DNA of 48,559 bases. Source: Ignavibacteriota bacterium. Its GTDB lineage: Bacteria > Bacteroidota > Ignavibacteria > Ignavibacteriales > Melioribacteraceae. The notes under the pieces were generated by a model. That model did no database searches and was not told the DNA's origin. It saw only the letters and a list, made by a program, of their open reading frames with translations. The DNA lies in assembly GCA_013112585.1 (NCBI GenBank), contig JABFGH010000033.1, positions 1-48,559 of the forward strand. Direction: 5' to 3'. The first letter of the stretch is position 1. The number at the start of each line of letters is the position of its first letter. Shown piece after piece: positions 19,861-48,559 of the stretch. A program made the translations under genes and the position numbers.

Positions 19861-20696
19861 TTGAACTACTCCGTAGTTCATTCCCGTATTGTACTCTTTT
19901 ACTACGGATTTTATCCGCAGCTATTAAACTTTAACCCATTCGGGGTAATTTGTTTTACTACAAAGCAGCCCAATATAAATAACCGTAGGGAAGAGTGACT
20001 GTGTGAAAATTACACTAAGTTTTCTCACTTTCTATTAGAAACCATTGAATAACATATGTTTTGTCATTGCTTCCAAAGGAATCCCTTCGGGAGAATCTCG
20101 ATGTTTTTCAATCAAGATGCGGCAATCTCTCACTTTTCGGCAGATTGCTTCTCCCGCCTAAGCGGGATCGCAATGACCCGAACAAGTTTATTTAGAGGTT
20201 ATTCAAAGGCTTCTATTAATAACTTGGAAGACCGGACTACGAAAGTAGTCCAAGTTAAATAGCTATGGATGCAATCCATAGAAAAACAAAATAGATGAAA
20301 CCCAAAGAACTGCAGCGCAGTTCAAGTAAATATTTTAACTGCATTCGCAGTCCCAAAACAAATTCGACAAAAATGAGTGAATTTAAATTTTACTTTTCTT
20401 CGGGGTAACTTGGTGTGACCACAAAGCAGCCTAATAAAATTAACCGTTGGGAAGAGAGGCTGTAAGAAAAATACACTAAGTTGTATCGTAGGTTGTTTAA
20501 TATTTTTGGGAAGAAAGGACTACGAATGTAGTCCAAGTTAAATAGCTATGGATGCAATCCATAGAAAAACAAAATAGGTGAAACCCAAAGAACTGCAGCG
20601 CAGTTCAAATAAATATTTTAACTGCATTCGCAGTCCCAAAACAAATTCGACGAAAATGAGTGAATTAAAATTTTACTTTTCAAAAAAAATATTTCT
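19861..20696. repeat. Intergenic repeat block: hairpin arrays with a MITE inserted
   Basis: No gene lies between 19704 and 20696. From 20234 a segment holds four hairpins in series: GGACTAC..GTAGTCC (20234-20251), CTATGGAT..ATCCATAG (20263-20281), GAACTGC..GCAGTTC (20307-20323) and ACTGC..GCAGT (20338-20351). The same segment recurs nearly identically 283 bases later (20517-20681). The spacer starting CGGGGTAA at 20401 matches one at 19941, and a diverged hairpin pair (GAACTAC..GTAGTTC, CGGAT..ATCCG) starts at 19863. The structure is thus about three units, with the MITE copy at 20038-20210 sitting between unit 1 and unit 2. Confidence 0.85.
20038..20210. mobile_element. MITE-like element, copy 2, with 8-bp direct repeats
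   Basis: 173 bases with the same ends as the copy at 17740-17893: TTGAATAACATATGTTTTG..TCATTGC at left and GCAATGACCCGAACAAG..GGTTATTCAAAGGC at right. The ends form an imperfect terminal inverted repeat around TTGAATAAC. It is flanked by TTCTATTA at 20030-20037 and 20211-20218, as expected for a target-site duplication. The interior contains two small palindromes (20072-20095 and 20153-20166) that recur in the tRNA-like fragment at 40555-40652. Confidence 0.75.
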
Positions 20697-40217: not shown

Positions 40218-40487
40218 TTACATCAAATTAAACAAAAAAGAAATTTTAAATGTTTTCGATGAATTTGTGCCATCTGTATTAGGGTTAACTATTTCTGAAT
40301 CAAGATGAATTTTTATAACATTTTCAGCATTGTTTGTGGAAATGTTTTTTAGAATCGAGTATGAATATCTTTCCTCATGATTAATAATAAGATTTACTGA
40401 AATTGAGAAAGTGGAATGAGTCCATATTGAAGATAAGACGCAATAATAAAACTTAATTATATAATTTTTAATAAGATTACTCCCTTT
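40218..40487 (-). pseudogene. Truncated reading frame at the edge of the accessory region
   Basis: About 89 open codons with no usable early start, ending in stop TAA at 40218-40220. The readable part includes HSTFSISVNLIINHEERYSY, then ILKNISTNNAENVIKIHLDSE and a final KISFLFNLM. It opens inside the 19-base direct repeat at 40477-40495, as if a gene had been cut there by insertion. No family is recognised, and it could be chance in AT-rich DNA. Confidence 0.3.
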
Positions 40488-40495
40488 TTACTCCC
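40477..40495. repeat. 19-base direct repeat, copy 1
   Basis: TTACTCCCTTTTTACTCCC, identical to 41073-41091, which is the 3' end of the integrase gene. The two copies frame the GIY-YIG/tRNA-like cassette. Confidence 0.85.
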
Positions 40496-40516
40496 CTCGA
40501 TTTTCTTTAAAATAAC

Positions 40517-40549
40517 AAACCCTCATAAGACTGAGTCCTATAAGGGTTT
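40517..40549 (-). terminator. Terminator-like hairpin after the tRNA-like segment
   Basis: On the minus strand AAACCCTTATAGGAC pairs with GTCTTATGAGGGTTT (15 pairs, two of them G-U) around a 3-base loop, followed by GTTATTTT. The G-U pairs form only in minus-strand RNA, so the hairpin is matched to that direction. Confidence 0.75.
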
Positions 40550-40554
40550 ATCCA

Positions 40555-40652
40555 GTGAGCGCGGCTTGTCCCGTTTAGCGGGGGGTGGTCTCTGCCAAAG
40601 GCATCCCCTTGGGAGAACCACCGACCCCTCCGACTCAATCGGAGTGCTCTAC
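40555..40652 (-). other. tRNA-like 3' segment with two palindromic insertions
   Basis: Read on the minus strand: GTAGAGC (D-arm 3' side), anticodon stem CTCCG / CGGAG with loop ATTGAGT, variable GGGTC, T-stem GGTGG / CCACC, and an acceptor strand ending CGCGCTCAC. Compared with the clean segment at 40948-40992, ~22 bases are inserted in the T-loop and ~19 at the T-stem/acceptor boundary. Both inserts are small palindromes. The 5' acceptor strand and most of the D-arm are missing. The loop would read TGA (Ser), yet there is no long variable arm, so it is not a normal tRNA-Ser. Confidence 0.7.
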
Positions 40653-40654
40653 AT

Positions 40655-40912
40655 CTAAGCTTTAATACGCTTGATATATTCGATAGCCTTTTTAGAATTT
40701 TTCATTCTTTTTAACTTAAGTTCCATTTGATAAGCCTCCTTCTTCGAGTTGAAGATTAATGTTTCCACTAAATTCCATGGTCCCTTCCCTTTAGTGTATT
40801 TACTTCTGTTTTTATTGTGACGCTTTAACCTGTCTTGTAAATTGGAGGTATGACCAATGTAATATCGGTCAGTTGATTGGGAATGGATAATATATACTGT
40901 GAATTCTTGCAT
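40655..40912 (-). CDS. GIY-YIG endonuclease-like protein (UPF0213 type)
   Basis: 85 residues from ATG 40912; the longer frame to 41035 reads through the tRNA fragment and terminator and is rejected. The family signature is complete: VYIIHS (GIY strand), YYIG (18-20), LKRHN with Arg31, and a Glu near 64 in the helix YQMELKLKRMK. Family members are single-domain nucleases, often free-standing. The gene sits between a tRNA-Lys 3' fragment plus terminator upstream and another tRNA-like segment downstream, which begins two bases after its stop codon. No Shine-Dalgarno sequence is evident; the start is only five bases after the terminator stem. Confidence 0.88.
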   Translation of the reverse strand: MQEFTVYIIHSQSTDRYYIGHTSNLQDRLKRHNKNRSKYTKGKGPWNLVETLIFNSKKEAYQMELKLKRMKNSKKAIEYIKRIKA

Positions 40913-40917
40913 AACAA

Positions 40918-40947
40918 AAAAAATCCCGAGGTTGATCGGGATTTTTT
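40918..40947. terminator. Perfect 12-bp terminator-like palindrome
   Basis: AAAAAATCCCGA / TCGGGATTTTTT with a 6-base loop, symmetrical and therefore usable on both strands. On the minus strand it follows directly the 3' end of the tRNA-Lys fragment, as terminators follow tRNA genes. It also lies just before the GIY-YIG start. Confidence 0.85.
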
Positions 40948-40992
40948 GTGAGCGCGGGTGGTCTCGAACCACCGACCCTCTGCTTAAAAGGC
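40948..40992 (-). tRNA. 3' fragment of tRNA-Lys (TTT), probable attachment site
   Basis: The minus strand reads from the anticodon loop CTTTTAA through stem 3' side GCAG, variable AGGGTC, T-arm GGTGG-TTCGAGA-CCACC and acceptor CGCGCTC, then A and C. Upstream of the anticodon loop the match to a tRNA ends: the 5' anticodon arm, D-arm and acceptor 5' strand are absent. Such half-tRNAs mark integration sites of tyrosine recombinase elements. An integrase gene ends 81 bases upstream. Confidence 0.75.
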
Positions 40993-41072
40993 TTAAAAAT
41001 GATTCAAATATGGCGTTTTTTGGCTGTTTTCGCACCTTTATTGTTCCGCTTTAACCCTATAAACACCCAATT

Positions 41073-41091
41073 TTACTCCCTTTTTACTCCC
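41073..41091. repeat. 19-base direct repeat, copy 2
   Basis: TTACTCCCTTTTTACTCCC, the same as 40477-40495. Here it encodes the last integrase residues and includes the stop codon. Confidence 0.85.
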
Positions 41092-42146
41092 TTTTTCATT
41101 CCCTCCTCCTCAACAAATTTTAACTTATTAACATCTTTAGATAGTTTCTTTTGATTTGCATTTGTGTAGTATTTCATAGTGGTAGATATATTCTTGTGCC
41201 CCAACAATTTTGCTGCCGACATTAAACTTACATCATTTTCATAAGCTAGTGTTGCAAAATGTTTTCTAAATGTTCTCAGGTTATATCCCTTTCCTTTCAG
41301 TTCCAAATCATCAAGAAATCTTCGGAATGCTCTTCCGACTTCACCAATGGTTGAATAACTGAATATTCTGCCTGTCCCCACTTCATCAATCCTCTTTAGT
41401 AAAGAGTTCTCCAAGTCATCGTGCAGTGGAACTCTTAAATACCTTTTAGATTTAGTAGAATAATATTTTAGCATCATATCTTCTACATCAATATCTTCAA
41501 CCTTGCATTTCAATATATCACTTGGCCTAAGCCCAGTATAAATCATTAAAAGTATTATTGTTCTAAAATTACTATTCTTCTTTTCAAGACCTTCCATAAT
41601 CTTTTTTATATGCTCTTTCTTAAATACTACAATTTCTTTTATCTCCGGTTTAGGTTTTAGATTTTTATTAATTCTAAAAACCGGAACATATGAGTATTCA
41701 AATAAAAAGTTTAGAAATTTATTAAAAACTTTGAAGTAATTATAAATCGTGTTTTCAGCCCTATCCAATGTTTTTATTTTTATTATCCATTCTTCTGCAG
41801 ATAGTTTATCAAGGACTGTGCATGGTTGGCTAATATCAAAGGATTGTGAAAATAATTTTAGAAATCTTTCATAATCTCCAATTGTTTTTTCATGCTTGTC
41901 ACTATTTAAGTTCAAGAATCTTTTGAAAGCATCAGCAATACTTGCTCTTTTAATATTATGGTTAGTGTATAAATCTTTTTGATTTTTTATCACTTCTTCT
42001 ATTTCTTTAACAATTTCTTGTGCTTTTTTAAGATTCTTTGTTGTTGCCTTCAGGCCAGTTGATCTATTTCTAACCTTACCTGAATCTGGATCTACAAAAC
42101 TGATATACCAATATTTTTTGTCCTTTGGTTTGTAAATAGATGCCAT
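41073..42146 (-). CDS. Tyrosine recombinase (phage/ICE-type integrase)
   Basis: 357 residues. An N-terminal SAM-like core-binding domain covers ~65-165 and the catalytic domain ~170-335. Catalytic residues: Arg207 in YTGLRPSD, a Lys near 233 (STKSKR), Arg294 in RTFRKHFAT, His317 in LLGHKN, and Tyr326/327 in TMKYY. The usual first His of HxxR is Arg291. The last codons are formed by the 19-base direct repeat. The start directly follows the stop of the excisionase gene. It is expected to integrate at the nearby tRNA-Lys fragment. Confidence 0.93.
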   Translation of the reverse strand: MASIYKPKDKKYWYISFVDPDSGKVRNRSTGLKATTKNLKKAQEIVKEIEEVIKNQKDLYTNHNIKRASIADAFKRFLNLNSDKHEKTIGDYERFLKLFSQSFDISQPCTVLDKLSAEEWIIKIKTLDRAENTIYNYFKVFNKFLNFLFEYSYVPVFRINKNLKPKPEIKEIVVFKKEHIKKIMEGLEKKNSNFRTIILLMIYTGLRPSDILKCKVEDIDVEDMMLKYYSTKSKRYLRVPLHDDLENSLLKRIDEVGTGRIFSYSTIGEVGRAFRRFLDDLELKGKGYNLRTFRKHFATLAYENDVSLMSAAKLLGHKNISTTMKYYTNANQKKLSKDVNKLKFVEEEGMKKGVKRE

Positions 42147-42458
42147 TTATTGCTCCCCTCTAATTTTATTAAAAACTTTATTTATCTCATCAATGGAACT
42201 ATCATTTGATGAGTGCTTGTGTTTTTTTACTATAGATTCAATTCCCTTGCTGTAGGTTTTAAATTTAGGATTTAGCTTAATTGTATTTGATTTTATGAAC
42301 TGAATCAATTCTAGGTGAGGAACTTTTCTTCGTTTTCCTAATTCTATGACACCAATCTTACCGGTCTCTATTAAATTTATAAGTGCAACTTTTCGAATTG
42401 TTAATTCTTTTGCTGCTGCAGAGATTGAATATAGTTTTAGTTCATTATTTTCTTCCAT
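42147..42458 (-). CDS. Excisionase-like helix-turn-helix protein
   Basis: 103 residues. YSISAAAKELTIRKVALINLIETGKIGVIELGKRRKVPHLELIQFI is a MerR/excisionase-type winged helix. A basic tail (VKKHKHSS) follows. The stop codon TAA is immediately followed by the integrase ATG, so the two are translated together. It is the likely Xis or directionality factor of the element. A hairpin lies 22 bases before its start. Confidence 0.8.
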   Translation of the reverse strand: MEENNELKLYSISAAAKELTIRKVALINLIETGKIGVIELGKRRKVPHLELIQFIKSNTIKLNPKFKTYSKGIESIVKKHKHSSNDSSIDEINKVFNKIRGEQ

Positions 42459-42480
42459 TTGTTAACTCGTTATAAAATAT

Positions 42481-42504
42481 GGGAAGTGGATTTTCACCCT
42501 TCCC
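42481..42504 (-). promoter_or_regulatory. Leader hairpin before the excisionase gene
   Basis: GGGAAG / CTTCCC inverted repeat with a 12-base loop, 22 bases before the excisionase start on the minus strand. It is one of several hairpins placed this way in the element. Confidence 0.5.
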
Positions 42505-42618
42505 GTTAGTTCTTGATTGAGCATTAGCCCAACTCTTTCTTTTATTGATCATTTTATTACCATTATTTATTTTTATTGTGATAATCTTCTGTTACTTATT
42601 TCTTATACCAAATAAATA

Positions 42619-42641
42619 CCCCACACCGATTTGCTGCAGGG
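42619..42641 (-). repeat. 23-nt intergenic hairpin, G-U-paired variant
   Basis: The minus strand reads CCCTGCA..9..TGTGGGG. Two of the seven pairs are G-U on the minus strand but would be A-C mismatches on the plus strand, so the structure is kept only in minus-strand RNA. It lies 7 bases after the radical SAM pseudogene and has the same 23-nt size as the hairpins at 43645 and 44349. Confidence 0.6.
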
Positions 42642-42648
42642 TGAGTGA

Positions 42649-43617
42649 TTATTTTAAATATCCCCAATCAACATTGTTAATCATTGAATATCCCATTTCT
42701 ACTTTATCAATTGAAATTGATTCTAATCCAGTGACGGGGTGAATTGCCCAGTTTATGAACTTGTCACCTCTTTTTCTGGATTTGGGCATTAAGAGGTTAA
42801 CACTAGATGCAGGCTCAACGGCCTCACCGCTATTGATAATTAATTCTGTAATGCGCTGATTGGTTTTCAATTTTGTTCTTGCCAGGTCATCAATTGCAGA
42901 AATGTTTTCAAATTGAGCCCAGTCATAATAATTTAAAGATTTATTTTTGAAAGCCTTTGCGCCGGCAATAATTTAAATATCCTTAAGTGTTTTCACATCT
43001 TTATCATTACCATAAAATGGCATTGCCATCACTCTAACAAAAATATCTTTATTACTAAGTTGAGTAATTGCGTTTAGTCTTTTTGTAATAGAACTTGTGT
43101 AAGCTTCATACTTTCTAGAAATAATCTCGTCATGATGGATAAAACTAAATTCTACCTGCACCATCCCCCTCATGTTTTTCAACTGATCAATGTATGGTGT
43201 CACATTATGATTCTTTGTTAAGATGTGCAGCATCCACTTGTTGTCTTCATGCCATTCAGTTTGGAAGACATCAAGTAATTCTGCAATTAAACCTCTTCCA
43301 AGATTTTTCTTCATATAATTAATTACTTTTGGTTGGAAGATCTCAGTTGTAACACCAAACTGAACTCTTTTAAGATGCTGAGGAAGATTAGAATATTTAT
43401 TCAACTCCTTTTTCAGCAGGTCTACTATATTCTCTTTTATTTGAACTTTTTCAAAAAAGTCTTTCCGGGTAGATTTTATTACGAGTCCAGGTACAAAGCA
43501 ATATTTGTACTGCATTTGGCAACCGATAAAAGGATTGAGTGTAAATGGATAATCAAATATCCCAACCTTTTTCTGAGGACTTAAAGCATACGTTGATTTT
43601 TTATTTATTGAAATCAT
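42649..43617 (-). pseudogene. SPL-like radical SAM gene, decayed
   Basis: One reading frame of 323 codons from ATG 43617 (GAGGAG upstream), interrupted by a single TAA at 42973-42975. The frame then continues as IIAGAKAFKNKSLNYYDWAQ, ENISAIDDLARTKLKTNQRI and on to 42649. The N-terminal part, TLNPFIGCQMQYKYCFVP, corresponds to the CxxxCxxC cluster motif of SPL-family radical SAM proteins, but the middle Cys is Tyr. Both defects could come from single transitions. The gene is therefore probably inactive. The intact relative would bind a 4Fe-4S cluster and S-adenosylmethionine. Confidence 0.75.
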
Positions 43618-43644
43618 TATTTTCTCCTCTAAATTTTATATTTC

Positions 43645-43667
43645 CCCCGCGCTTTCCATACGCGGGG
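43645..43667 (-). repeat. 23-nt leader hairpin before the radical SAM gene
   Basis: Perfect stem CCCCGCG / CGCGGGG with a 9-base loop, 27 bases before the ATG at 43617. On the plus strand it is followed by ATTTTTATG, so antisense termination is also possible. Confidence 0.65.
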
Positions 43668-43707
43668 ATTTTTATGAAAAATAAAAAACAACAAAAGACT
43701 GAAGCAT

Positions 43708-44322
43708 TTACGGCTGCTTCGTGCCGTTTAAGTTTTTAAGTTGCTGAATAACCGTACGTTCCATCTTATGGATTATTTGATCCACCGCTAGATAGATTTC
43801 ACCATAAGTATTAGCTACAATTTTAGTTTCGAAATAAAATGTTAGCGGTGATGCTGGTCTCATTCGAAACCCATCAGGCATTAAATGCATATCGTAATTG
43901 TTTTTTCCGTATGGGTGAGCAACTATTTTTAGTGTCGGACAGTTTAAGATATATTCCTTCGCAGCTGTCATATAATCGATATCAATAATGCCGGCAGCCA
44001 CATCCGGTGGATCAAAGTATTTCAGCCTAACCCGGGATTTGGTATCTGATAAGGCTTTTGTTAAAAAGTAATAATTATCATGTCTAAGTAACATTTGATT
44101 ACCATTACTGCCGGGGACAACTTCTGCTGATACAAATTCATAATTACTTGTTTTTAATTCAGCAATAGGAATTGTATAACCTAAGTCCCTCGAAAGCACA
44201 TAATGATTTCCTATTTTCGTCAGCTCAACACCATTACAATTCAACATCCAGTGACTTTCAGATACGTTCCAAGATTTAGTAAATGAGGAGTTTATGGTTT
44301 TCACTTGTTTTGTTTTTTTCAT
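43708..44322 (-). CDS. Accessory-element protein, paralogue A of an unrecognised family
   Basis: 204 residues, no signal peptide or membrane segment. Shared with the 185-residue neighbour: L.C.GV.L near the start, VLSR.LG, KYFD.P, an A.EY(I/V).N motif, PYG, and FYFET.I...TY(G/A)EI...VD.II near the C-terminus. It has an extra Lys-rich N-terminus. It appears to be a tandem duplicate restricted to this element in the window. Function unknown; no catalytic signature seen. Confidence 0.7.
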   Translation of the reverse strand: MKKTKQVKTINSSFTKSWNVSESHWMLNCNGVELTKIGNHYVLSRDLGYTIPIAELKTSNYEFVSAEVVPGSNGNQMLLRHDNYYFLTKALSDTKSRVRLKYFDPPDVAAGIIDIDYMTAAKEYILNCPTLKIVAHPYGKNNYDMHLMPDGFRMRPASPLTFYFETKIVANTYGEIYLAVDQIIHKMERTVIQQLKNLNGTKQP

Positions 44323-44348
44323 AAGATTCCCAAAAAAGTTTTAGAATT

Positions 44349-44371
44349 CCCTGCACCAGTAAAGTGCAGGG
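44349..44371 (-). repeat. 23-nt leader hairpin before paralogue A
   Basis: Perfect 8-bp stem CCCTGCAC / GTGCAGGG with a 7-base loop. It lies 10 bases after the stop of paralogue B and 26 bases before the start of paralogue A. Confidence 0.7.
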
Positions 44372-44381
44372 TTTAATTAGA

Positions 44382-44939
44382 TTATTTAATGGCATTAGCA
44401 TCAATGTCATTTATTATTTCATCAACTTTGATCAGAATTTCGGCATATGTGTCACCAGTAATTTCTGTTTCAAAGTAAAATGAAGTTGGTAATGGCTCCC
44501 GTGTAATTATCCCGCCTGGAGCGAGCCTCAATTCCGGATCTTCTACTCCGTATGGATTTGTTAATACATTTAACCCAAGAGAGTTGACCACGTATTCTTG
44601 TGCATCAAAACAATGATCTTCTAGCTCATTTCCATAAAGTTTAATGGGGGCATCAAAATATTTTACAAGTACAAATGCTTTATCATTTGATGCAGCATGC
44701 ACTATACTATAGTAGTGTTTTTGATAATTCATGTCAGTGTTTGTAACGTCCGTTATTGTGTTTTCCGCTGACATAAAGGGGATACCAATTGAGAACAATT
44801 CGGCGGTTGTAATATCCCCGCCAAGTCCTCGCGATAATACCGGCATAACGCCGGTGAGGGTATTCAAAACTACTCCTTTACAGAGTAATTGTTTTTTCCC
44901 CTCATAAGCATCATGTCGGAATTCAAGATTTATTTTCAT
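44382..44939 (-). CDS. Accessory-element protein, paralogue B of an unrecognised family
   Basis: 185 residues with an AAGGAG before the ATG. It shares with paralogue A the motifs LLCKGVVLN, VLSRGLGG, VKYFDAP, AQEYVVNS, NPYG and TSFYFETEI..DTYAEI..KVDEIIND. The spacing of these blocks is nearly the same in both. It could be a structural or surface protein of the element, but nothing in the sequence proves a role. A dense hairpin cluster lies upstream (44971-45128). Confidence 0.7.
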   Translation of the reverse strand: MKINLEFRHDAYEGKKQLLCKGVVLNTLTGVMPVLSRGLGGDITTAELFSIGIPFMSAENTITDVTNTDMNYQKHYYSIVHAASNDKAFVLVKYFDAPIKLYGNELEDHCFDAQEYVVNSLGLNVLTNPYGVEDPELRLAPGGIITREPLPTSFYFETEITGDTYAEILIKVDEIINDIDANAIK

Positions 44940-44970
44940 AAATACTCCTTTTTTATTTTATAATTTATCT

Positions 44971-45128
44971 AGTGGTCTGAGAATCTCAGATCCACTCAGT
45001 CAAAATTTCAAAGAACGATTTTGTGTCGTTCGAATTATTTAACATTTTCGAAAATGTGAAAACAATCTAATTTGTTTAGAGGCTAATTCGGATTAGCAGT
45101 TGGCTAATTCTCAAACTTTCGAATTAGC
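44971..45128. repeat. Cluster of five consecutive hairpins
   Basis: AGTGGTCTGAGA / TCTCAGATCCACT (44971-44996, one bulge), GAACGA / TCGTTC (45013-45031), the perfect palindrome ACATTTTCGAAAATGT (45042-45057), GCTAAT-TCGG-ATTAGC (45082-45097) and GCTAATTC / GAATTAGC (45103-45128). They fill most of the 253-base gap between the 606-residue-class gene and paralogue B. This may be a leader RNA, a replication or transfer site, or a protein-binding array. Confidence 0.75.
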
Positions 45129-45192
45129 AGTATTGAATTGATTTTTAGGATTGGGAATGTCGGTGTCGAGTGTGCTGGTTTACGATGAATAA

Positions 45193-46908
45193 TTAATCAT
45201 ACTTTTCTTGAGATTCAGATAAGTCCATAAAAAATGTTTCATCAATAATTTGATTAAACTTAATTTCAAATTTGAATTTTTCAACATTCATTAATTTTAC
45301 CCTATCATATTCATCTTTAACATGATTTAAAGTAAAGTTACTGAATGCTTCTTTAAATGGGGAAGCGGCAAATGAAGATTTCTTTAAATAATTTTTTTGC
45401 CCTCTCCAAGCACCGGATTTTTGGGCGTTTTCTAATTCTTTTTTGTAGTCATCACCCTGGTATTTCAAAACTGCCCTTTGAAGTTTTGTGCCGTCTATTG
45501 ACTCTCCATTAAAAAGCTCATGGTATCTAATGATTATTGCTAAATATGTGAAAGCATTACTGTCCTTGGAAAGTTGAAATGCATCGTTATAGAATACGCT
45601 CCAATTACTTTTACCTGTATCGACAAATTTCCAGACAACTTTCTGCACCTGTGCAATATTCTTTTCGTCACTCAAGGAACTATTTTTATTTATTCGTTTG
45701 ATTTCCTGTTGTATGATTAACCAAAAAATGGGATTTGTTAGATCTTCGATTTTTAGTCTGGAAAATTTTTCTATAATGTTATCTAAATCTTCTAAATTCT
45801 GAAGGTCCCGGAGAAGTTTCTTAAACCCATTCGAATCGATAATTGAATAAAGATTTCTTACTTCTTTCTTAACAATTTTTCCATGCTCTATTAATAATGC
45901 AATAAATAGTTTCGTAATTAAAGATTTGATTTCAGCATTATCCGGGATTGAAAAAGAGCGGTAGAATTGTAAGTAAAAATCTAGATCAATCTTTAATCCC
46001 TGAATAGCAATTTTATTTCTACTAATTTCTAGCGGTCTAATTTTTTTACTGAACAAATCTAACTGTTCATCATTTAATGAATCTATATGGGCGAACATAA
46101 TTTTACTACTATCAGGATTAAATTCCTTTACACCTTTACGAAGATCATAGCTAACAATATCATGCCCGTACATATAATGGTAAATCGATTTTTTGGCTAC
46201 TAAAAAATCTTCACCATGAAAGTAGCCTTTATTAATACTATTATCTTCCCTAATCGTATTTAGTTCATTAATATAGTTTTCATTAAAATTATTTATGAAA
46301 CGAGGGTGTTTGTAACTGTACTCCTCATACGTAACCGTTTCAGATTTTTTTAAATGCTTTTTTAGTTCCTTGTTAACTGCAGAATATTCAGTATTTGAAA
46401 ATTTAGTATTAGTTTGTGATGTCCATCTTTTTACTTTACTATAGTCTTCTAATAGAGATATATTATTAAATTGCCGGCATTCGTTTCCTATGGTTTTCAC
46501 AAATGGCAGATAACACAAATAAGATTTATCAGTATCAAGCTCATTAGTAGAATGCAATATCTTTCCCTTGTGAATCAAGTCTTCAATTTGAAGTTTCTTT
46601 GACGCCTGAATTTTCTGTAGTTCATCTTCTACTAAAAACTTATCATAAATATCAAAGACAAATACTTCATTTTCATCAACATACTTTTTATAACTCATAT
46701 CAAAATTCTTTAATATTCTTATTGATGTTTTTTGAAAAATTGATTCTTTGATTACTATGCAAATAGATTTTAGTTCTTTGAAATCTTTTTCATTGAGAGT
46801 TGATAACAAATTAGAAATCTCGACTAATCTGGAGAGGATAATACTTTTTTGCCTTAGAGTTTTATCTTCCGAATGTTTATTTGAAGTTATTTCTGCTAAA
46901 AGTATCAT
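45193..46908 (-). CDS. Large, mostly helical protein of unknown family
   Basis: About 571 residues from ATG 46908 (MILLAEITSNKHSED). A GTG-started extension to 47013 would overlap the divergent gene and is rejected. No signal peptide. It is largely alpha-helical and rich in Lys, Ile and Asn, with very low GC. Short basic/aromatic stretches such as GAWRGQKNYLKKSSFAASPF lie near the C-terminus. No nuclease, ATPase or other motif is recognised. It diverges from the gene at 46947 with only 38 bases between the start codons and no Shine-Dalgarno sequence on either side. The composition suggests recent acquisition. Confidence 0.65.
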   Translation of the reverse strand: MILLAEITSNKHSEDKTLRQKSIILSRLVEISNLLSTLNEKDFKELKSICIVIKESIFQKTSIRILKNFDMSYKKYVDENEVFVFDIYDKFLVEDELQKIQASKKLQIEDLIHKGKILHSTNELDTDKSYLCYLPFVKTIGNECRQFNNISLLEDYSKVKRWTSQTNTKFSNTEYSAVNKELKKHLKKSETVTYEEYSYKHPRFINNFNENYINELNTIREDNSINKGYFHGEDFLVAKKSIYHYMYGHDIVSYDLRKGVKEFNPDSSKIMFAHIDSLNDEQLDLFSKKIRPLEISRNKIAIQGLKIDLDFYLQFYRSFSIPDNAEIKSLITKLFIALLIEHGKIVKKEVRNLYSIIDSNGFKKLLRDLQNLEDLDNIIEKFSRLKIEDLTNPIFWLIIQQEIKRINKNSSLSDEKNIAQVQKVVWKFVDTGKSNWSVFYNDAFQLSKDSNAFTYLAIIIRYHELFNGESIDGTKLQRAVLKYQGDDYKKELENAQKSGAWRGQKNYLKKSSFAASPFKEAFSNFTLNHVKDEYDRVKLMNVEKFKFEIKFNQIIDETFFMDLSESQEKYD

Positions 46909-46946
46909 AAATATTTGGTATCTTGAAAAAAACAATATTACAATAT

Positions 46947-47756
46947 ATGAAAATTGCAGCAGTATATATCGGTGAACAAATAACCCATATCTCCGTGACG
47001 GATTCGTCCCCACACAATAACTCAGGATTTCTCTCTGTAAATAGTATATTTTTATTTAAGGAGCCTAGATATTTTGCTGATAGACTTAAAGATCTACTAG
47101 AAAGTAAATCAATATTTGAACGAAATAGTTTTGATTTGTTAGTATTTTGTTTAAACGACTCTTTTGATAAAAATTCAAATAAACTAATTCATAATGAAGA
47201 CCTTGATTATTTATCATATTCAAGCAGCTTCGACGGATTTGACTTTAATAGCAACTTTAACGAGTTTTTAAAAAGTGACGGGCAAATAAAATTATTAAGC
47301 TACTTTGAAGTTTTTTCAAATTGTGATTTAAATTTTTATAATAGTAAGCCGACTATAGAGCCATCGGCTGTACTGCTATTATATAAGGATTATCAATGTG
47401 GTTTTATCTCGGAAGATGGTTCAACTGAAATATTTGATCTTGATTTGGAAAACAATAAATCGCTGTCAGATTATTTAGGTGATGAAGCAATATTTAATAT
47501 CGTAAATGAGCCTGTAAATAAAATAACTTATGAATACACCGAAAGAATTAAATATGTTCTTGGAAAACTAATATTAAAAGCACACTCAAAAGAATATGTT
47601 TTCAGAAAAATAAAAATAATTGTTGATGGAATAGGCATCATAAATCAAAATAAAATTGAATTAAGAGATTTTGAGATAGAAAGTATCCAACCTTTTTTCA
47701 CAAGGGCAATGTTTGGCATAAGCAATGTGCTTTCAGTTCCCATCATTGTAATATAA
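46947..47756 (+). CDS. Unknown protein, possibly a degenerate ROK/ASKHA fold
   Basis: 269 residues from ATG 46947 (a TTG at 46923 is less likely). The order of segments resembles ROK-family sugar kinases and repressors. There is an N-terminal strand pair (IAAVYIGEQITHISVT), a strand FDLLVFCLNDSF, then PSAVLLLYKDYQCGFISEDG where ROK proteins have their second phosphate-loop strand. Near the end come KIKIIVDGIGI and LSVPIIVI. The DxGxT phosphate loop and the ROK zinc motif are absent, so enzymatic kinase activity is unlikely. The fold call is inference only. It is divergently paired with the large helical protein. Confidence 0.6.
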   Translation: MKIAAVYIGEQITHISVTDSSPHNNSGFLSVNSIFLFKEPRYFADRLKDLLESKSIFERNSFDLLVFCLNDSFDKNSNKLIHNEDLDYLSYSSSFDGFDFNSNFNEFLKSDGQIKLLSYFEVFSNCDLNFYNSKPTIEPSAVLLLYKDYQCGFISEDGSTEIFDLDLENNKSLSDYLGDEAIFNIVNEPVNKITYEYTERIKYVLGKLILKAHSKEYVFRKIKIIVDGIGIINQNKIELRDFEIESIQPFFTRAMFGISNVLSVPIIVI

Positions 47757-47819
47757 TATTTAGTAATTATTGGTATAAGAGACTTAGACATCTATTTTTA
47801 ATTAACTATGAGGTTTCTT

Positions 47820-48548
47820 ATGTCACTAACACTCGGCTGCGATCCGGAACTAATCTGCCGGATCAACGGACAATTTACATCAGCAAGTAATTATTTCAAA
47901 TCAAACTCATCAATGGGATTAGACGGCAACAATTCAGTAGCTGAACTGCGTCCCGGTTATTCAGAATCACCAATTGATCTAACTTCTAAAATTAGAACAG
48001 TACTTGAATACGGACACGAATGCAACGAGGAGTTGGAGTTCTACTCCGGTCATTATGTTGACGGTTATCCTATCGGCGGACATATACACGTAGCCGCCAA
48101 ACCAACTTCTGAACTGGTAGATTCATTGGATACCGTTCTTACCGCTCTATCAAATTGTATTGATGATAAAGTGCAGAGAGAAAAACGTGAACACACCGGT
48201 TACGGACAGCGCAAGCAATACCGCTGCAAGCAATACGGAATGGAATACCGCACACCGGGTAGCTGGCTGCTCTCTCCTTCTACATCACTTGTAACATTAA
48301 CTTTAACAAAACTCGTAACTGTGGGCGTTCAGGAAGACGGATTAAACTTTACCGATCTTAAAGGCAGGTCCCATAGCTGCACATTTCTACGCAATCTTAA
48401 GTCTATGCTTAAAACTATTCCGGAAGATTGCGCCGAAGGATTATCTGAGTTGGGGCTTTTGTTGAGTAGAAGCTGCATCGACTGGAATCAAAACATCCTC
48501 CCTAACTGGGGAATCGGAAATGCTGAACAAATAAGGGAGGCAGCATGA
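47820..48548 (+). CDS. Phage-type COOH-NH2 ligase (amidoligase, phiEco32-like)
   Basis: 242 residues from ATG 47820, chosen because GAGG sits 6-7 bases upstream; ATG 47808 has no such site. Family landmarks: LGCDPELICRINGQ near the N-terminus, LDGNNSVAELRPGYSESP, YPIGGHIHVAAKP and YGMEYRTPGSWLLSP. The COOH-NH2 ligase type 2 family has a glutamine-synthetase-like fold and is thought to join amino and carboxyl groups in peptide or wall modification. The gene is visibly richer in G and C than its neighbours. Its stop overlaps the next start (ATGA). Confidence 0.8.
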   Translation: MSLTLGCDPELICRINGQFTSASNYFKSNSSMGLDGNNSVAELRPGYSESPIDLTSKIRTVLEYGHECNEELEFYSGHYVDGYPIGGHIHVAAKPTSELVDSLDTVLTALSNCIDDKVQREKREHTGYGQRKQYRCKQYGMEYRTPGSWLLSPSTSLVTLTLTKLVTVGVQEDGLNFTDLKGRSHSCTFLRNLKSMLKTIPEDCAEGLSELGLLLSRSCIDWNQNILPNWGIGNAEQIREAA

Positions 48549-48559
48549 CACATTGTGAT
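48545..48559 (+). CDS. Start of a further gene, cut by the window edge
   Basis: ATG at 48545 overlaps the TGA of the amidoligase gene, with GGGAGG just upstream. It reads M-T-H-C-D and then the window ends. Too short to identify, but the coupling suggests a partner of the ligase. Confidence 0.45.

Follow-up and report, generated by a model that had tools for sequence, protein, structure and literature searches.

Single-domain GIY-YIG nuclease genes beside tRNA genes and hairpin-disrupted tRNA copies in the chromosomes of Bacteroidota and other phyla

Phage SegB is the closest known case to the genes described here, though no close relative of them. It is a free-standing GIY-YIG nuclease of T-even phages and its gene, like ours, adjoins tRNA genes on the same strand. 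The enzyme cuts within tRNA genes, has the cleavage motif RAWTSGAAC and is required for the tandem amplification of tRNA-Tyr and segB (PMC13096335). The same paper reports no preference of SegB for particular isotypes, whereas the lineages of the present family are tRNA-specific. SegB is phage-borne; the unit considered here is chromosomal and differs in sequence, size and anatomy. T4 SegB has 222 aa (by translation, with the stop sign counted) and a long part beyond the GIY-YIG domain, whereas the protein of our locus has 85 aa and no such part. T4 SegB gave no match to the profile of the family, so that no relation is detectable beyond the superfamily, and a search for partial tRNA copies beside T4 segB gave none at the threshold applied.

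The single-domain proteins of the UPF0213 or YhbQ–YazA group share the domain and have a similar size (PDB 1zg2, E = 1.6e-15; 1ywl, 3.7e-13); we know of no link between the solved members and tRNA. Integrative elements and phages that insert at tRNA genes restore the tRNA 3' end, so that the tRNA stays functional, and the end that they displace is left behind. The present unit is unlike them in comprising only 300–450 bp without an integrase, in copying either end of the tRNA, in carrying a tRNA copy that is disrupted by hairpins and in forming tandem arrays. The double-hairpin elements of fungi are paired hairpins that insert into loops. Mitochondrial double-hairpin elements and GC clusters are described as short GC-rich palindromic elements (PMC4478555). 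The hairpins reported below are likewise short, GC-rich and palindromic, but they sit in tRNA copies beside a nuclease gene and are not dispersed through the genome, few being present in 334 kb of flanking DNA. A search of open-access full texts gave no description of chromosomal bacterial GIY-YIG units with tRNA copies, and in that literature only SegB comes near.

The tRNA-Lys locus of the window

The window, by which we mean the whole stretch of 48,559 nt of an Ignavibacteriota genome that was analysed, contains one copy of a widespread unit of ~300–450 bp: a single-domain GIY-YIG gene, an adjoining tRNA and, on the far side of the gene, a partial copy of that tRNA, here called psi. On the minus strand, at 40992–40517, the order is a 3' part of tRNA-Lys(TTT) (40992–40948), a terminator (40947–40918), the GIY-YIG gene (40912–40655), psi (40654–40555) and a second terminator (40549–40517). 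These coordinates bear out the order given in an earlier note made from the letters of this DNA, and the T-arm and acceptor sequence that the note had seen in both tRNA parts is indeed common to them (GGTCGGTGGTTC, GAGACCACC, CGCGCTCAC). Its description of two segments resembling tRNA 3' halves is right in that both derive from a tRNA, but psi exceeds a 3' half and starts in the D-arm.

The upstream tRNA part (positions 29–73 of the tRNA, 45 nt) adjoins an integrase gene and is 100% identical to intact tRNA-Lys. The intrinsic terminator between it and the nuclease gene, a perfect hairpin AAAAAATCCCGA..TCGGGATTTTTT, is part of the unit. The nuclease frame runs from an ATG at 40912 to a stop at 40655 and encodes 85 aa, of which residues 3–72 of the 83 scanned form the Pfam domain PF01541 (E = 4.8e-17). 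The residues Y7, Y18, G20, R28, H32 and E64, invariant in 17 members of the family and presumably catalytic, are all present, and an invariant Y, Y-x-G, R, H and E fits an intact GIY-YIG active site. A longer frame of 126 aa that translates the upstream tRNA exists, as had been noticed, but it is a mechanical extension, and we take the ATG at 40912 to be the true start of the gene.

Psi, 100 nt long, is a partial copy of tRNA-Lys that begins in the D-arm and extends to the 3' end of the tRNA; relatives share its anatomy. It holds the D-arm, T-arm and acceptor sequence and has been altered by hairpins at three places: the anticodon arm, the T-loop and the region before the acceptor end. The anticodon arm is replaced by a foreign hairpin, CTCCGATTGAGTCGGAG at 40628–40644 (CTCCGA-TTGAG-TCGGAG), similar to the hairpins of tRNA-Lys relatives. 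A 22-nt double hairpin is inserted between GTTC and GA of the T-loop at 40593–40614, where 17 other loci have insertions at the same place; two adjacent GC-rich hairpins set precisely into a loop are also a trait of double-hairpin elements. Before the 3' strand of the acceptor stem there is a 20-nt insert ending in CGGGACAAGC (40564–40583); a similar insert, a hairpin plus GGGACAAGC, recurs near the 3' end of psi in loci L015 and L163, which are from different genera. Psi and its terminator together fold more stably than shuffled sequences (z = -4.85), much of this signal coming from the terminator. That terminator (40517–40549) resembles those of unoccupied tRNA-Lys genes in some relatives and that of the tRNA-Lys on contig C19 of the same genome. 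The argument that it is native was dropped, since the stretch behind the C19 tRNA-Lys matches in 86 of 90 bases, and the terminator may be either native or an element end. A group I intron was also rejected: neither the window nor any of 10 loci has an Rfam intron that reaches the gathering threshold, and the adjoining tRNA is intact in those 10.

ARAGORN and Rfam found no intact tRNA in the window. Among the matches listed, the only intact tRNA-Lys(TTT) of this genome lies at G000:C19:93086-93158, ~250 bp from the end of contig C19. The window in turn has a tyrosine integrase gene (41073–42146, minus strand; PF00589, 1.1e-18), part of an element at tRNA-Lys and separate from the unit, with the 45-nt tRNA-Lys repeat beside it and the matching tRNA-Lys near the C19 end. 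We infer that the upstream tRNA is truncated because the element with this integrase ends there. The fragment at 40948–40992 is best read as attR, the right-hand attachment scar of a putative integrated element that spans the window and C19, and the ends of the two contigs are apparently the two ends of one such element at tRNA-Lys(TTT) (41073–48559 and G000:C19:93086-93405). If so, the intact tRNA that belongs before the nuclease gene is visible in relatives only. Repeats of GGGAGTAAAAA lie beside the integrase (41072–41097), behind the C19 tRNA-Lys at the contig end and behind psi (40477–40497), and may represent arm sites of the integrase or the end of an older element.

This genome has two further small GIY-YIG genes, L001 (G000:C3) and L004 (G000:C44), with no tRNA in their stretch. 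On either side of them lie short repeats that look dispersed, of the ACACTTCGACGGGGCTCAGTGTGAC and the GCTTCATCCGTCGGCTGACGGGTTCGCAATGAC type. Repeated perfect palindromes occur elsewhere in the window, at 20234–20323, 20517–20606, 23791 and 28299 (GGACTACGAAAGTAGTCC and a variant, GAACTGCAGCGCAGTTC twice, TCCCCTCTCGAGAGGGGA twice).

tRNA genes and their partial copies in other genomes

The window protein as query has matches in at least 52 of 58 related genomes, and a profile of 17 members, chosen from the first loci and mostly tRNA-linked, has matches in at least 196 of 296 genomes of the phylum search. Relatives, phylum loci and 43 named loci were pooled and freed of duplicates to give 209 distinct loci, which are best-scoring matches and no random sample. 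A tRNA or tmRNA lies within 300 bp of the nuclease in 171 of the 209 (98/115 in the set of relatives, 50/55 in the phylum set and 23/39 among the named loci), whereas among 262 random positions in these stretches the figure is 4. None of 30 control loci with HNH genes in the same genomes has a tRNA within this distance, the single tRNA-bearing one having it ~480 bp away. The enrichment of tRNA sequence around small GIY-YIG genes that the earlier note had suggested looking for is thus found. The remaining 38 loci, the window among them, have no tRNA within 300 bp, and 13 of these are cut by the end of the sequence.

Nuclease and tRNA or tmRNA lie on the same strand in all 171 linked loci; an exception outside the 209 is L260, where a partial GIY-YIG frame lies ~255 bp from a tRNA-Lys on the opposite strand. 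The undisturbed arrangement in relatives is an intact tRNA, a terminator or short gap, the GIY-YIG gene and psi, so the tRNA itself is kept, as had been supposed. The supposition that insertion is confined to tRNA 3' ends fails, as the tRNA is upstream of the nuclease in 130 linked loci and downstream in 41. Among relatives, it is downstream in 20 of 99 tRNA-linked loci, typically in the mirror image of the usual order, with a 5' partial tRNA copy, the nuclease gene and then the intact tRNA; at L065, one of these 20, the tRNA called is psi-like and a tRNA-Lys lies upstream. In at least L029, L065 and L199 the nearest tRNA called by ARAGORN is itself psi-like, judging by eye or by an undetermined label.

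By ARAGORN labels, the linked tRNAs cover 17 of the 20 amino acids, and tmRNA is found at 4 loci. GIY-YIG genes of one sub-branch lie behind tmRNA genes (L096, L103, L106 and L122). The unit occurs in Bacteroidota, Verrucomicrobia, candidate phyla and others; hosts with both tRNA and psi include Melioribacter, Mesonia, Neolewinella, Pedobacter, Verrucomicrobiales, Spartobacteria, Victivallis, a Moranbacterium, a Parcubacterium, Magasanikbacteria and an Uhrbacterium, although single assignments may be wrong because many hosts are metagenome bins. No match of the window protein was found in 50,697 phage records, and none of 600 candidate stretches of viral contigs was confirmed for alignment A2; a phage origin was rejected on these grounds. 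No close plasmid carrier was found, a plasmid yazA match having 33% identity.

Across the nuclease gene from the tRNA, 148 of 165 loci have a partial copy of that tRNA, as called by short-match BLAST with approximate boundaries, and the flanking tRNA fragments expected around related genes are thereby confirmed. The same search found none in 165 loci with shuffled tRNA and 2 in 152 windows farther out; 17 of the 165 loci have no psi. The end that is copied follows a rule of polarity: when the tRNA is upstream, psi reaches the tRNA 3' end (88/110), and when it is downstream, psi reaches the 5' end (29/38).

Most psi carry a perfect hairpin, 6 bp or longer, which is absent from the tRNA (109/148, versus 9/138 control windows and 8/148 shuffled psi). 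Hairpins present in the tRNA were excluded from this count because 45 of the 148 intact tRNAs hold one that passes the threshold, and in the 73 psi with one matched piece the search extended 30 bp past that piece. Three psi have only terminator-like hairpins, and without these the count is 106/148 against 9/138; 39 of the 148 have no hairpin at this threshold. The hairpins are GC-rich and sit mostly in the anticodon arm or the T-loop; typical examples are TCCCGA..TCGGGA, TCCGCC..GGCGGA and CCTGCC..GGCAGG. In 75 of 148 psi a hairpin has TCC among its first four bases, and a similar style recurs in loci of Bacteroidota, Verrucomicrobia and candidate phyla. In psi with two or more matched pieces, 78 breaks relative to the tRNA were counted: the T-loop and the anticodon arm have 29 each, the D-arm has 9, the T-stem 7 and the variable region 4. 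The 17 T-loop insertions that lose no base are all at one place, 13 of them being 18–23 nt long and several, by eye, double hairpins. Both arms are intact in 9 of 148 psi, a number that includes same-size hairpin swaps that BLAST aligned through. Dispersed genomic palindromes were rejected as the source of psi hairpins, being rare in the flanks (334 kb hold 49 whose stems have 7 bp or more, 6 of them of the TCC type).

Nuclease lineages, arrays and unoccupied genes

The phylogeny of the nuclease follows tRNA identity. On a tree of 197 nuclease domains, of which 163 have a labelled tRNA, the anticodon label changes 60 times, compared with 120–136 times in 200 shuffles, and the isotype label 44 times, compared with 107–121. 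The nearest protein relative lies beside a tRNA of the same isotype in 126 of 163 cases (11% expected) and of the same anticodon in 107 (6% expected). Each lineage is specialised for one or a few tRNA genes; the proteins nearest to that of the window mostly adjoin tRNA-Lys, and the tRNA-Val and tRNA-Met types are close to them. When a lineage shifts between tRNAs, the two tRNAs resemble each other more than random ones do in every domain compared, most of all in the acceptor stem, so that no single recognition site stands out and the attempt to pin one down by this comparison was abandoned.

At least two full nuclease copies are present in 40 of the 209 loci, and the matches comprise 250 full-length and 45 partial nucleases. 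Arrays of constant period occur, one of five copies at 315 bp beside a tRNA-Asp and one of five full copies at 450 bp, with a remnant, beside a tRNA-Leu. Other arrays consist of psi without nuclease between the copies (L021, L110, L250 and L011, the last being G000:C19), with periods of ~73–124 bp. Six such psi lie upstream at a tRNA-Met (L021) and three at the tRNA-Lys of the window genome (C19); four lie behind a tRNA-Val (L110), and the array at L250 is also behind its tRNA. Arrays of this kind suggest that psi may arise or spread by another process. At L163 there is a tandem duplication of the tRNA itself.

Occupied and unoccupied genes for the same tRNA both exist, as the empty sites envisaged in the earlier note required. 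Among 30 tRNA-Lys loci, 5 have the gene beside the tRNA and 23 have no match, leaving L260 and L240, where the contig ends just where the nuclease gene seems to begin; two of the 23 (L243 and L250) have psi alone. Among the matches listed, an identical 73-nt tRNA-Lys is found in several occupied and unoccupied genomes. At a tRNA-Asp, G051 lacks the unit and psi(5'), and its congener G044 has both; the upstream flank, 90% identical over 1.5 kb, abuts the tRNA in G051 and psi(5') in G044, and the downstream sequence differs. At a tRNA-Pro, G056 lacks ~308 bp that are present in G053 and retains an apparent short scar of the start of the unit, so this 'empty' site records loss rather than absence before insertion.

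A proposed cycle and its alternatives

The observed anatomy, the association with tRNA, the rules of strand and polarity, the tRNA-specific phylogeny, the arrays and the occupied and unoccupied genes point to a tRNA-specialised, homing-like selfish unit whose insertion is driven by repair and leaves one intact tRNA; we put the probability of this reading at roughly 0.55. The nuclease would cut the DNA of an unoccupied tRNA gene in an arm, either the anticodon arm or the T-loop. One broken end would pair with an occupied copy, at its intact tRNA, and be extended through the nuclease gene into psi, and the other would anneal to the tRNA end of psi. The product would comprise an intact tRNA and the unit, followed by the original tRNA end in its displaced position. 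Repair begun from the left end would produce tRNA-GIY-psi(3'), and from the right end psi(5')-GIY-tRNA; the mirror arrangements, the polarity, the intact tRNA and the displaced end would all follow from repair on an occupied template begun at either broken end. Repeated cutting and repair would build tandem arrays, and the hairpins may prevent psi from being cut or from working as a tRNA.

We read the SegB motif RAWTSGAAC as the reverse complement of the tRNA T-loop, with the single place of T-loop insertion falling inside the motif match, and the motif may thus be linked to the interruption of psi in that loop. Against cutting in these arms stands the finding that the acceptor stem gains most similarity when lineages shift between tRNAs. 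The intact tRNA is not visibly immune, the tRNA-Lys of occupied and unoccupied genomes being identical, and immunity by recoding of the occupied tRNA was rejected for this reason. The nuclease would then be expected to attack its own host, unless it cuts the donor weakly or under some control. Inefficient cutting of the donor allele is typical of free-standing GIY-YIG enzymes (PMC13096335), and a similar inefficiency would ease the main problem, that posed by the intact tRNA of the unit.

A system acting on RNA, in which the GIY-YIG protein attacks tRNA or invading tRNAs and a transcribed psi serves as decoy, antidote or regulatory tRNA mimic, seems unlikely to us. Psi does lie on the same strand as the tRNA and the gene, is strongly structured and keeps tRNA-like arms, and arrays of several psi occur also without a nuclease gene. 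It is, however, incomplete in varied ways, being a 5' or a 3' part and starting anywhere from D-arm to T-loop, and terminators part the tRNA from the gene in many loci. Among solved structures, UPF0213 proteins and the structure-specific endonuclease SLX1 come closest, and we know of no GIY-YIG ribonuclease. Similarity of the profile to SLX1 would fit a nuclease that recognises hairpins or cruciforms, the TCC..GGA hairpins being the mobile entity and tRNA arms their preferred landing sites, much as RAYT proteins recognise REP sequences. The recurrent hairpin style in Bacteroidota, Verrucomicrobia and candidate phyla, the TCC near the hairpin start in half of the psi and precise insertion in loops agree with this, but such hairpins are rare away from psi and a target consisting of a hairpin alone leaves unexplained why nuclease lineages track tRNAs; we consider it quite unlikely.

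That both tRNA fragments are merely duplicated attachment sites of the integrase element is very improbable. This had been named beforehand as an observation that would tell against a tRNA-inserting unit, and it probably holds for the upstream fragment, which is best read so and has the GGGAGTAAAAA repeats for company, one of them behind psi. It fails for psi (40555–40654), which unlike an att repeat has a D-arm, a replaced anticodon arm and T-loop inserts, and which recurs in relatives as one block with the intact tRNA and the GIY-YIG gene, adjoining the nuclease. Ordinary duplication and decay of tRNAs, with a nuclease gene merely tolerated at such loci, is hardly credible: tandem tRNA duplications occur, L163 being an example, but the invariant strand (171/171), the polarity, the hairpins in 109 of 148 psi and the tRNA-specific phylogeny already disfavour it.

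Returning to the homing-like unit, we regard it as a variant of the free-standing GIY-YIG homing endonucleases, with a real chance that it forms a class of its own. In that somewhat less likely reading, units of 300–450 bp would each address a GIY-YIG nuclease to one tRNA gene. The hairpin-swapped half of the tRNA would serve both as a portable homology arm and as an uncuttable copy of the target, the unit could pass between unrelated bacteria, into the same tRNA gene each time and with the tRNA kept, and the nuclease-free psi arrays would be non-autonomous relics.

If the proposed cycle is true, a large family of minimal selfish elements that live in essential and highly conserved tRNA genes would have been overlooked. 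This would explain many small GIY-YIG genes beside tRNAs and frames that seem to translate tRNAs, and also why tRNA copies are broken and assemblies break at tRNA loci. The family would offer a natural series of nucleases that each have one particular tRNA gene as their address, and a direct test of homing when the target cannot be interrupted. It would be a cellular counterpart of the phage system in which SegB amplifies tRNA genes.
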